64,000 nucleotides of DNA from Georgenia subflava (GTDB taxonomy: Bacteria; Actinomycetota; Actinomycetes; Actinomycetales; Actinomycetaceae): positions 124,001 through 188,000 of the forward strand of contig NZ_VUKD01000003.1 in NCBI RefSeq assembly GCF_009193155.1. Direction: 5' to 3'. The notes under the pieces were generated by a model. It was not told where the DNA came from. It was given only the letters and a program-made list of their open reading frames with translations, and ran no database searches. Shown here one piece after another: positions 28,041-31,971 of this stretch. Numbering within the stretch: the stretch's first letter is position 1; each line of letters begins with the position of its first letter. Position numbers and translations under genes: made by a program.

Positions 28041-30725
28041 GTGACCGAATCAGCGCGCCCCCGTCTCCTGCTCGTCGACGGCCACTCGATGGCCTTCCGT
28101 GCGTTCTACGCACTCCCGGCCGAGAACTTCTCGACATCGACCGGTCAGCACACGAACGCGGTGTACGGGTTCCTCTCCATGCTGATCAATCTCCTGGCCC
28201 AGGAGCAGCCCACCCACCTGGCCGTCGCCTTCGACGTCTCCGGCGGCACGTTCCGCACGGAGGAGTACGCCGAGTACAAGGGCAACCGCGACGCCGCACC
28301 GGAGCCGTTCCAGGGCCAGGTGCCGCTCATCCAGGAGATCATGCGCGCGATGAACGTCGACGTGCTGGAGAAGTCCGGTTTCGAGGCGGACGACATCCTC
28401 GCCACGCTCGCCACCCGCGGCGCCGCCGCCGGCATGGAGGTGCTCATCATCTCCGGCGACCGCGACACCTACCAGCTGGTCACCGAGGACGTCACGGTGC
28501 TCTACCCGGTCAAGGGTGTGTCCACCCTGACCCGGATGACCCCGCAGGCGGTGCTCGACAAGTACGGCGTCGGGCCGGAGCGCTACCCGGACATCGCCGC
28601 CCTGGTGGGGGAGACCAGCGACAACCTGCCCGGAGTCCCCGGCGTGGGGCCCAAGACGGCCGCGAAATGGATCAACCTCTACGACGGGCTGGACAACGTC
28701 GTCGCGCGGGCGGACGAGATCGGCGGCAAGGCCGGCCAGAGCCTGCGCGACAACCTCGCCCAGGTGATCCTCAACCGCCAGATCAACCGGCTGCTGACCG
28801 ACGTGGAGCTGCCGCTGGGCGTGGACGACCTCGCGCGCCGGGCCGTCGACCGCGAGCAGGTGCACCAGGTCTTCGACGCCCTCGAGTTCGACGTGCTGCG
28901 CGAGCGGCTCTTCGCCACCCTGCCCGAGGCGCAGCAGAGCGACGAGCCCGCCCCCTCCCTCGAGGTCGACGTCGTCGCGCTGGCGGACCTGCCCGACGGG
29001 CTGGACGGTTGGCTCTCCGCCCGCAACGGCAACCTCCTCGGCCTGGACGTCACCGGCAGCGCCGCCCAGGGCGGCGGGGACGCGTGGGCCTTGGCCGTCG
29101 CCGACGACGCCGGCCACGCCGTCACCGTCGACCTCTCGGAGATCGACCCGGCCAGCGAGCAGGTCCTCGCCACCTGGCTCGCCGACGCCACCTCGCGCAA
29201 GGCCGTGCACGAGGCGAAGGTGGCTTGGCACGCCCTCGGCGGCCGCGGCCTCGCCCTCGACGGAGTCGTCTTCGACACCTCGCTCGCCGCGTACCTGTGC
29301 CACCCCGACCAGCGGCGCTACGCACTGCCGGACCTGACGGTGCGCCACCTGAAGCGTGAGCTGCGCGAGGACGAGGAGACCGACGGGCAGGCCATGCTCT
29401 CCCTCGATGCCGACGGGGTGGACCGGGTCGCCGGGCTGCGGGCCGGCGCGGTCGTCGAGCTCGCCGACGTCCTCGGCCAGGAGCTGGCGGACCGTGGTGC
29501 CGCGCACCTGCTGGAGGAGCTCGAGCTGCCGGTGCTCCGGGTCCTGCAGGACATGGAGAAGGCCGGCATCGCCGCCGACACGGAGAACCTGGAGTCCCAG
29601 CGCCACGACTTCGACCACGCCGTCGAGCGGGCCGCCGCGATGGCCTACGAGGCGATCGGCCGCGAGGTCAACCTCGCCAGCCCGAAGCAGCTCCAGGAGC
29701 TGCTGTTCACCGAGCTGGAGATGCCCAAGACCAAGAAGACGAAGACCGGGTACACGACGGACGCCGACGCGCTCGCGGACCTGTACGTCAAGACCGAGCA
29801 TCCGTTCCTCGAGCACCTGCTCACGCACCGCGACCAGATCCGGCTGCGCCAGACCGTCGAGGGGCTCCTGCGGTCGGTGGCGCCGGACGGACGCATCCAC
29901 ACCACGTTCCACCAGACCATCGCCGCCACCGGACGGCTGAGCTCCACCGACCCCAACCTGCAGAACATCCCCGTGCGCACCGATGACGGGCTGCGCATCC
30001 GCGAGGGCTTCGTCGTCGGGGAGGGGTTCGAGTCGCTGCTCACCGCCGACTACTCCCAGGTCGAGATGCGGATCATGGCGCACCTGTCCGGCGACGCCGG
30101 GCTCATCGAGGCCTTCAACTCCGGCGAGGACCTGCACTCCTTCGTCGGCTCGCGGGTGTTCGGGGTGCCCACCGACGAGGTCACGCCGGCCCAGCGCTCC
30201 AAGATCAAGGCGATGAGCTACGGCCTGGCCTATGGGCTCAGCGCCTTCGGCCTGTCTCGGCAGCTCAAGATCGAGGTGAGCGAGGCCCGCGGGCTGATGG
30301 AGGAGTACTTCGAGCGCTTCGGCGGGGTCCGGGACTACCTCACCGGGGTCGTCGACGCGGCCCGCAAGACCGGCTACACCGAGACGATCATGGGGCGGCG
30401 CCGCTACCTGCCCGACCTGACGAGCGACAACCGCCAGCGCCGCGACATGGCCGAGCGTATGGCCCTCAACGCCCCGATCCAGGGCTCGGCGGCGGACCTG
30501 ATCAAGGTCGCGATGAAGGGCACCCGGCGTGCCCTGGACGAGGCGGGCCTTCGCTCACGGCTGCTGCTCCAGGTGCACGACGAGCTCGTCCTGGAGGTCG
30601 CCCCGGGCGAGGCCGAGCAGGTCGAGGCGCTGGTGCGCGAGCAGATGGGCGCCGCGGCCGACCTGTCGGTCCCGCTCGACGTCTCGGTCGGCACAGGCCG
30701 GTCCTGGCGGGACGCCGCGCACTGA
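28041..30725 (+). CDS. polA: DNA polymerase I
   Basis: An 894-residue repair and gap-filling polymerase. The 5'-3' nuclease domain (about 1-300) has LLVDGHSMAFRAFYAL and GVPGVGPKTAAKW. The middle 3'-5' exonuclease-like domain (about 315-500) lacks the catalytic acidic residues (LLGLDVTGSA in place of the DTE motif), so proofreading is absent, as in mycobacterial PolA. The polymerase domain has motif A ADYSQVEMRIMAHLSGD (about 670), motif B RSKIKAMSYGLAYG and motif C QVHDELVLEV (about 844). GTG 28041 is set by the leaderless TAGGGT. The last 12 codons are copied 222 bp downstream in the repeat region. Confidence 0.97.
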   Translation: MTESARPRLLLVDGHSMAFRAFYALPAENFSTSTGQHTNAVYGFLSMLINLLAQEQPTHLAVAFDVSGGTFRTEEYAEYKGNRDAAPEPFQGQVPLIQEIMRAMNVDVLEKSGFEADDILATLATRGAAAGMEVLIISGDRDTYQLVTEDVTVLYPVKGVSTLTRMTPQAVLDKYGVGPERYPDIAALVGETSDNLPGVPGVGPKTAAKWINLYDGLDNVVARADEIGGKAGQSLRDNLAQVILNRQINRLLTDVELPLGVDDLARRAVDREQVHQVFDALEFDVLRERLFATLPEAQQSDEPAPSLEVDVVALADLPDGLDGWLSARNGNLLGLDVTGSAAQGGGDAWALAVADDAGHAVTVDLSEIDPASEQVLATWLADATSRKAVHEAKVAWHALGGRGLALDGVVFDTSLAAYLCHPDQRRYALPDLTVRHLKRELREDEETDGQAMLSLDADGVDRVAGLRAGAVVELADVLGQELADRGAAHLLEELELPVLRVLQDMEKAGIAADTENLESQRHDFDHAVERAAAMAYEAIGREVNLASPKQLQELLFTELEMPKTKKTKTGYTTDADALADLYVKTEHPFLEHLLTHRDQIRLRQTVEGLLRSVAPDGRIHTTFHQTIAATGRLSSTDPNLQNIPVRTDDGLRIREGFVVGEGFESLLTADYSQVEMRIMAHLSGDAGLIEAFNSGEDLHSFVGSRVFGVPTDEVTPAQRSKIKAMSYGLAYGLSAFGLSRQLKIEVSEARGLMEEYFERFGGVRDYLTGVVDAARKTGYTETIMGRRRYLPDLTSDNRQRRDMAERMALNAPIQGSAADLIKVAMKGTRRALDEAGLRSRLLLQVHDELVLEVAPGEAEQVEALVREQMGAAADLSVPLDVSVGTGRSWRDAAH

Positions 30726-30822
30726 GCGAGGCCGGCCAGGACGCGCGACGGAGAAGGCGGCCAGGACGCGCGACGGCCAGCGCGCCGCAGCCAGTCCTGC
30801 CACGCGCCGGGGACGGATTAGG

Positions 30823-30861
30823 CCGAAGGGTTTGTACCGGTATCCGGTACAAATCGTTCGG
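30823..30861. repeat. Palindrome in repeat copy 1
   Basis: TTTGTACCGG-TAT-CCGGTACAAA (30831-30853) is perfect with 10-bp arms and is enclosed by CCGAA (30823-30827) and TTCGG (30857-30861). Its AT-rich arms stand out in this genome. It could be a terminator for polA and the convergent gene, a REP-like element or a protein site. Confidence 0.9.
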
Positions 30862-31044
30862 TTTGTCGTGGTTGGCGTGCGCTCTTGCGGCGTCCCGTCC
30901 TGTCGGCCGTCGGCACGGGCCGGTCCTGGCGGGACGCCGCGCACTGAGCAACGCCGGCCAGGACGCGCGACGGAGAAGGCGGCCAGGACGCGCGACGGCC
31001 AGCGCGCCGCAGCCAGTCCTGCCACGCGCCGGGGACGGATTAGG

Positions 31045-31083
31045 CCGAAGCGTTTGTACCGGTATCCGGTACAAATCGTTCGG
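31045..31083. repeat. Palindrome in repeat copy 2
   Basis: The same TTTGTACCGG-TAT-CCGGTACAAA core (31053-31075) and CCGAA/TTCGG flanks, 222 bp from copy 1. Flanking bases differ between the copies while both arms are unchanged. Confidence 0.9.
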
Positions 31084-31149
31084 CTTGTCGTGGGAGGTCT
31101 TACGGCGTCCCGTCGGGGCGGTCTTGCGGCGTCCGGCCCGTGGCCGGCC

Positions 31150-31971
31150 TTACGGCCTGCGGGTGACGACGATGATCGTGCCCGGCACCAGCGCGCCCCG
31201 CACCGGCCCCCAGCCGCCCCAGACGTTGTCGTTGTCGGTCGGCCACTCCGGCTCGACGAGATCCTCGATCACCAGACCCGCCGCGACGACGTCCCGGACG
31301 TGGTCGCCGAAGGTGCGGTGGTACTCGGCGTACAACGGCTCGCCCGAGGCGTCGACCTCGACGTAGGGCGTCCGGTCGAAGTAGGACCGGTTCACGGTCA
31401 GGCCGTGCGCCGTCGGGTCGTCGGGGAACGCCCACCGCACCGGGTGGGTCACGGAGAAGACCCACCGTCCACCCGGGCGCAGCACCCGCGCTACCTCCGC
31501 GTGCACCCGGTGCGCGTCGGGCACGAAGGGCAGGGCCCCGAACGCGGTGAACACGACGTCGAACGACTCCGGCCCGAACGGCAGGTCGCGGGCGTCGGCG
31601 AGCACGGTCGGCACCGTGAGAGCCGTCCGGGCGTCAAGCTCGGCGGCCCGCGCGAGCATGCCCGCCGCGACGTCGGTAGCGACGACCTCGACGCCCTGCC
31701 CGACCAGCCACCGCGAGCACTGCGCCGCGCCGCAACCCACCTCCAGCACCCGGGCCTCGCGCAGCCGGGCCAGGTCCCCGAGCAGGTGCGCGTCCGCCTC
31801 GCGCAGTCCCTCCGGGCACCAGCAGAAGTCGGCGGCACCCAGGAACTCACCGTGCTCGGCGAGGTACTCCGCCGAGGCGGTGCTCCACCACCGGGCGTTG
31901 GCACGGGCGGCGGCGCCGCCGTCGACGTTCTCGTAGCCGGCGTGACCGACGCCAGGGCTCTGCGGATCCAT
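31150..31971 (-). CDS. Class I SAM-dependent methyltransferase
   Basis: A 273-residue methyltransferase. Motif I VLEVGCGAAQCSRWL (about residue 73), acidic VVATDVA (about 95), LPFGPESFDVVFTAFGALPFV and the strand LRPGGRWVFS define the Rossmann SAM site. The N-terminus YENVDGGAAARANARWWSTASAEYL is conserved in an actinobacterial subgroup without known substrate. ATG 31971 gives that N-terminus; the alternative GTG at 32031 would add 20 unconserved residues. It converges on polA across the 222-bp repeat region and is divergent from rpsA. Confidence 0.87.
   Translation of the reverse strand: MDPQSPGVGHAGYENVDGGAAARANARWWSTASAEYLAEHGEFLGAADFCWCPEGLREADAHLLGDLARLREARVLEVGCGAAQCSRWLVGQGVEVVATDVAAGMLARAAELDARTALTVPTVLADARDLPFGPESFDVVFTAFGALPFVPDAHRVHAEVARVLRPGGRWVFSVTHPVRWAFPDDPTAHGLTVNRSYFDRTPYVEVDASGEPLYAEYHRTFGDHVRDVVAAGLVIEDLVEPEWPTDNDNVWGGWGPVRGALVPGTIIVVTRRP

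Follow-up and report, generated by a model that had tools for sequence, protein, structure and literature searches.

A dispersed REP-like hairpin in Georgenia subflava and its association with a gene for a predicted AbiEi/DUF559-like nuclease

The spacer downstream of polA in Georgenia subflava holds two copies of a palindrome that is dispersed through the genome, placed in intergenic DNA, and specific to the species. Copies of the same palindrome flank a gene for a predicted AbiEi/DUF559-like nuclease, and palindromes beside related genes have cognate matches in many other genomes. We interpret the palindrome as a non-coding REP-like hairpin of ~47 bp that is recognized and probably spread by this nuclease, and we assign this explanation a probability of about 0.6. 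We infer that the linked protein would bind and nick the hairpin and so bring about its copying: the winged helix would read the stem sequence, the nuclease domain would nick, probably near the apex, and repair would place new copies of the hairpin in intergenic DNA, mainly at the 3′ ends of genes. The 222-bp tandem duplication that follows polA would be a later, local event that carried one hairpin copy along. Throughout, the window is the whole stretch of 64,000 nucleotides that was analyzed, and its relevant features are these.

28041..30725, + strand: polA, the left neighbor (named in the original prediction; congener DNA is 80-86% identical)
30687..30871, + strand: tandem module 1, starting inside the polA 3′ end; 5 of 185 positions differ from module 2
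30734..30776, + strand: pair of 18-bp direct repeats in module 1 (30734, 30759; module 2 equivalents at 30956 and 30981)
30819..30865, no strand assigned: 47-bp REP-like hairpin, copy 1 (core 30831-30853)
30909..31093, + strand: tandem module 2, whose first 39 bp repeat the polA 3′ end
31041..31087, no strand assigned: 47-bp REP-like hairpin, copy 2 (core 31053-31075)
31150..31971, - strand: right neighbor, convergent, methyltransferase-like as judged by eye

Hairpin copies downstream of polA and across the genome

The two modules occupy the spacer between polA (+) and the convergent gene (-, 31150-31971). The observations behind the original prediction were confirmed, and its interpretation was partly supported. 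The modules lie 222 bp apart and are identical at 180 of 185 positions (97%, 5 differences); given that polA ends at 30725, the second begins with the duplicated last 39 bp of the gene, inside which the duplication therefore began, as had been proposed. The nested repeats were confirmed: each module contains the 18-bp direct repeat GGCCAGGACGCGCGACGG twice, 25 bp apart (starts at 30734, 30759, 30956, and 30981), together with one palindrome, TTTGTACCGG-TAT-CCGGTACAAA, at 30831-30853 and 31053-31075 (C5:154831 and C5:155053). Once the outer arms are included, the hairpin measures 47 bp. The intactness of an AT-rich palindrome in both tandem copies had been read as a sign of selection. This argument fails because, with 5 differences over 185 positions, we estimate that a 23-bp core would escape any change by chance in roughly half of cases. 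The tandem duplication itself looks ordinary and incidental to the palindrome. In the congener G003, the matches to the two flanks (query positions 1-835 and 1245-2700 out of 2701) are separated by 9 bp, indicating that ~400 bp of the spacer after polA is missing there. The end of polA, GGCGGGACGCCGC (window 30706-30718), also has 13-nt inverted counterparts downstream (31126-31138, 92% complementary), so the spacer may additionally have been reshaped by inversion or template switching. Elsewhere in the genome, at L019:3983-4135, another pair of copies sits 94 bp apart with its flanking DNA repeated, a second local duplication of the element.

Folded as single-stranded DNA, copy 1 reaches -16.8 kcal/mol (z -7.8) and copy 2 reaches -17.9 kcal/mol (z -8.1); none of 200 shuffles folded as well as the window hairpins. 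The pattern TTYGTACCGRNNNYCGGTACRAA occurs at 29 places in the genome (no mismatch in 24, one in 4, two in 1; three in none), and the reversed control pattern occurs at none. A covariance model built from the 29 copies found 31, including two clear extra ones on contig C4; two weak matches, at C3:929215 and C6:38393, were left out of this count. The palindrome is thus not unique to the polA locus, and the condition that was to refute the original prediction does not hold: it is nearly absent from relatives, though dispersed in 29-31 copies in its own genome, and the suggestion of a REP-like element is supported.

The aligned element reads CAGRCCGAAGGG-TTYGTACCG-N5-CGGTACRAA-CCCTTCGGYCTG, with GTACCG and CGGTAC invariant in 29/29 copies and conservation fading near +/-23 bases. 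All 29 copies fall outside called genes; the genes were called with a codon model that we trained on 17 ORFs of the window, not taken from an annotation. The 27 spacers that bear sites comprise 12 convergent, 2 divergent, and 13 tandem ones; convergent spacers are over-represented whether the expectation is set by spacer length (p = 1.5e-5) or by number of spacers (p = 0.006). When the copies are aligned on the contig + strand (alignment A1), conservation is higher in the right arm than in the left one (column 48 is A in 7 copies, column 12 is T in 1); since contig orientation should be arbitrary, this asymmetry would reflect chance or a strand bias.

Outside the species the palindrome is rare. 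At one mismatch or fewer, the pattern was found in 2 of 59 genomes, namely its own and that of one congener with a single copy, and a longer pattern matched one contig of a public species collection, from Georgenia sp. EYE_87 (our genome's own record is perhaps excluded there). Viral contigs gave 0 matches to the palindrome pattern. At E <= 0.01, the covariance model detected versions in 7 of 8 congeners, few and diverged, and GTACGG mostly replaces GTACCG as the core in G008, G006, G004, and G002; single places found by the model in G010, G022, and G039 have unlike arms and were not counted as members of the Georgenia hairpin family. We searched five congeners for the flanks of 12 own sites and compared spacers for the 6 (of 29) with both flanks found: the palindrome was present in 0 of 20 orthologous congener spacers, which were too diverged for insertion ends or a target-site duplication to be defined, a point against our explanation. 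At a few loci, orthologous spacers carry species-variant palindromes (L019/L076, L034/L071 and L077, and L017/L069, the last judged by the right-hand gene), so that some positions are old and their sequence has shifted species by species. In G001, the orthologue of the spacer at own site L024 contains a long palindrome of another kind (score 23), which may belong to that species' own family, and one copy in G008 (L073:2001-2085) is closely trailed by a second right half-arm, TATCAGTACGAAGTTACCGGC.

The linked gene and hairpins beside its homologues

At one locus outside the window (L034), two of the dispersed copies flank a gene for a 325-aa protein (L034:4214-5191), and the pairing of the upstream copy, with 22 stem pairs, is the best among all 29. 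A variant palindrome also lies upstream of the syntenic genes in G008 and G006 and upstream of the G005 homologue. The N-terminal half of the protein is AbiEi-like (PADLOC AbiEi, 1.3e-18; solved AbiEi structure 6y8q, E 3e-4), and AbiEi_4 is matched by 34 of 38 family members at E <= 1, the Georgenia subflava member scoring under the curated cutoff. In the C-terminal half, DUF559 is matched by 17 of 38 members (best 3.4e-6) and REase_MTES_1575 by 2 of 38 (best 0.0099), both at E <= 1; the own member has no DUF559 match, which counts against our explanation. Residues E200, H210, D231, E242, G245, H249, D257, R260, D261, C285, C307, and C311 are invariant in the 38 members, and E200, D231, E242, H249, D257, and D261 are putative catalytic residues. 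The family resemblance suggests that the C-terminal domain may be the part of the protein that nicks. Sequence comparison places the gene under purifying selection: dN was below dS in seven gene pairs (dN/dS about 0.1-0.35), two of which have dS above 1.3.

The gene lies between convergent neighbors in 8 of 11 loci inspected, and no AbiEii toxin was found among 10 neighboring proteins from 8 loci, plus OpuAC. Phage or plasmid cargo was rejected: plasmids searched with the G227 protein yielded no homologue, a phage search with the own protein returned one partial record (55% covered, 41% identity), 83 pattern matches in viral contigs included no confirmed relative, and the window segment matched no phage. 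The genome also encodes a second homologue, in which the search alignment shows a stop. Around it lies a second, unrelated palindrome family with at least 8 places (L120; G000:C3:1090960-1096987 and C6:201833-257798), including at least 4 copies on contig C6, which lacks a clear copy of the first family.

Homologues of the gene were detected in 23 of 59 relatives (E <= 1e-6) and in 85 of 296 sampled genomes of the class (E <= 1e-15). For hairpin scoring we took the 57 best-scoring loci, 30 from relatives and 27 from the class sample with two duplicates left out, and the frequencies given here hold for that sample. One fixed rule was applied with a score cut of 14, a threshold of our choosing below which the polA copies themselves fall. 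Hairpins were present within 400 bp of homologues in 53 of 113 windows, corresponding to 37 of 57 genes, 16 of them with hairpins on both sides; distal windows at 880-1300 bp gave 2 of 108 (Fisher p = 9e-17 against the near windows), in-gene windows 0 of 114, and dinucleotide shuffles 0 of 565. Per intergenic kilobase, the density was 2.24 near the genes (49 hairpins) versus 0.25 further out (4 hairpins). The same scoring around the window's 48 called genes found hairpins in 12 of 94 flank windows, and some of the 53 flank hairpins resemble ordinary GC-rich ones (G002, G003 downstream, G042). The 20 homologues that have no hairpin within 400 bp at this cut count against our explanation.

Spacing relative to the gene is often fixed: among 27 downstream hairpins, 14 have their center 20-22 bp past the stop codon, and among 26 upstream hairpins, 8 have theirs 88-90 bp ahead of the start codon. 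The apex is ATAG or CTAT in 15 of the 53 gene-flanking hairpins, 13 being CATAG or CTATG; shuffled apices gave an expectation of 1.6, and the motif occurred in 1 of 608 stem windows. This apex motif is nevertheless a minority feature (15/53), a further point against our explanation, and among the 29 own dispersed copies an ATAG/CTAT apex occurs in 4 and ATAT in 11. On a gene tree of 56 homologues, hairpin presence is unclustered (16 changes versus a shuffled mean of 16.6), which also counts against our explanation; the link is spread over the whole gene family; the pattern fits, without proving, an old gene-hairpin link that was often lost.

For the most part, palindromes that flank a homologue are also scattered through the genome that carries it. 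Joining 17 of them into one query and searching 19 genomes, with copy numbers that are lower bounds, yielded at least 115 cognate places (17 being the sources) versus 2 non-cognate ones among the matches listed, both in G006 for a segment of its sister G005. Among the matches listed, the richest genomes were G020 (at least 20), G039 (at least 17), G051 (at least 14), and G010 (at least 13); G003, G005, and G010b had 2 each, and both listed places in G016 are the flanks of its own gene. For the G052, G006b, and G005b segments, the source place stood alone among the matches listed; these three, together with G016 and G003, count against our explanation. Another 18 segments, searched as a second set, had matches in 18 of 18 source genomes, broadly agreeing with the first set, and none in G000, G039, G295, G174, or G163. 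Two results from these searches also count against us: G253 has at least 35 dispersed matches, yet its sampled gene lacks a near palindrome, and G134 and G264 have just 2 and 5 among the matches listed. Segments of the f38 family resemble each other, so their matches are not strictly cognate.

Competing explanations

Passages of PMC3985639 describe the AbiEi protein of a type IV toxin-antitoxin system as binding inverted repeats in its own promoter. By analogy, recognition of the hairpin by the winged helix is plausible, and a protein-binding site, one of the roles originally proposed for the palindrome, is possible given the AbiEi-type winged helix of the linked protein. The same precedent would suit a regulon in which an AbiEi-like transcription factor controls its own gene and others through selected palindromic operators; upstream palindromes lie 23-270 bp from the start codon, and the core is invariant in all 29 copies. 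We consider such a regulon unlikely, in view of the 2 divergent and 12 convergent spacers among 27, the many palindromes situated just past a gene's stop, and the near absence of the repeat from close congeners (0/20 orthologous spacers). A position at the 3′ end of a gene or between two convergent genes would suit an RNA-level element, that is, a terminator or a stabilizer of mRNA 3′ ends that has multiplied. A terminator scanner returned one match, at 30829-30855 in copy 1, and none at copy 2 (shuffled mean 0.3), and the arms covary somewhat: the covariation score was matched by 0 of 500 shuffles, and the number of pairs changed on both sides by 55 of 500. The inner stem is invariant, however, unlike that of a structure-only element, and wobble pairs ignore the transcribed strand at ++ sites (7 vs 7) and follow it weakly at -- sites (3 vs 8), with gene-context labels assigned by hand from the codon-model gene calls. 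A T run is absent from the 29-copy alignment, and Rfam had no match in window 30400-31500 at E up to 1, on which ground an Rfam RNA was rejected. The spacer at L039 and its orthologue L203 in G005 share a GC-rich hairpin, GGGCCGGTGG...CCACCGGCCC, which is the better terminator candidate than the adjoining REP-like palindrome. An RNA-level element is improbable to us, and the original suggestion of a terminator keeps its one scanner match and is weak as a primary role.

Species-specific bursts and placement in spacers would also be expected of a miniature element moved by an ordinary transposase, for which the AbiEi-DUF559 gene is just a favored landing place. Yet unrelated palindromes stand beside members of this one gene family in many genera, at fixed distances and, for 16 of 57 genes, on both flanks, and the own genome lacks a Y1 transposase (the sole transposase family searched); we regard this account as quite improbable. 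Chance local duplication, which the apparently local and recent 222-bp repeat (97% identity) and the second locally repeated pair at L019 might suggest, stands for the duplication itself. For the palindrome it is refuted by 27-29 further dispersed copies, and as the whole story, in the face of 29-31 dispersed copies, we rejected it as scarcely credible.

Relation to known systems

With slightly less assurance than for a REP-like hairpin spread by the linked nuclease, we lean toward the view that actinobacteria possess a second, independently evolved REP-type system, in which species-specific hairpins, a fraction of them with a (T)CATAG apex, are copied around the chromosome by an AbiEi winged-helix/DUF559 nuclease that is unrelated to the HUH transposases of classical REPs and whose gene the hairpins flank. 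This would supply a candidate maker for dispersed palindromes of actinobacteria, suggest a repeated origin of REP-like systems from unrelated enzymes, and provide a testable function for a large chromosomal gene family known just by its AbiEi and DUF559 matches. Given that each genome supplies its own enzyme-substrate pair, specificity can be tested through pair swaps. The open-licence literature that was searched yielded no description of such a palindrome/nuclease-gene system and no paper naming both "AbiEi" and "DUF559".

Several known systems share part of this architecture. AbiE type IV toxin-antitoxin systems offer an N-terminal winged helix that aligns with that of the Georgenia protein (6y8q, as above); they differ in that the C-terminal half of the Georgenia family carries a nuclease-like motif set and that AbiEii is absent from the neighborhood. 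The DUF559/REase_MTES_1575 nucleases of the PD-(D/E)XK type provide family matches and conserved E, D, ExDG-like, H, and RDN positions, and the DUF559-like domain is presumably linked to Vsr-like PD-(D/E)XK nucleases. Here, however, the domain is fused to an AbiEi winged helix and linked to dispersed palindromes. MITEs are likewise small, non-autonomous repeats that may be moved in trans, but the present element is one 47-bp palindrome instead of two terminal repeats around a spacer, with no target duplication defined.

The architecture also parallels that of REP/RAYT. Passages of PMC2817692 and PMC3733652 describe RAYT genes flanked by two REPs, with a species-bound pairing of REP and gene, and the likeness to those accounts lies in many-copy, species-specific extragenic palindromes that match the ones flanking a gene for a DNA-processing enzyme. 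As in a REPtron, a short extragenic palindrome is present in many copies (29) and copies flank an enzyme gene; the enzyme is unrelated, combining an AbiEi winged helix with a DUF559-like domain rather than being an IS200/IS605-type tyrosine transposase. RAYT REPs proper were rejected, as a search for RAYT (Y1_Tnp, HUH; PF01797) gave 0 matches in the own genome and was positive in 5 of 14 control genomes. No GTAG or CGTC tag is conserved beyond the palindrome in the 29 aligned copies. We read the system as REP-like in its working and as standing outside the REP/RAYT family.
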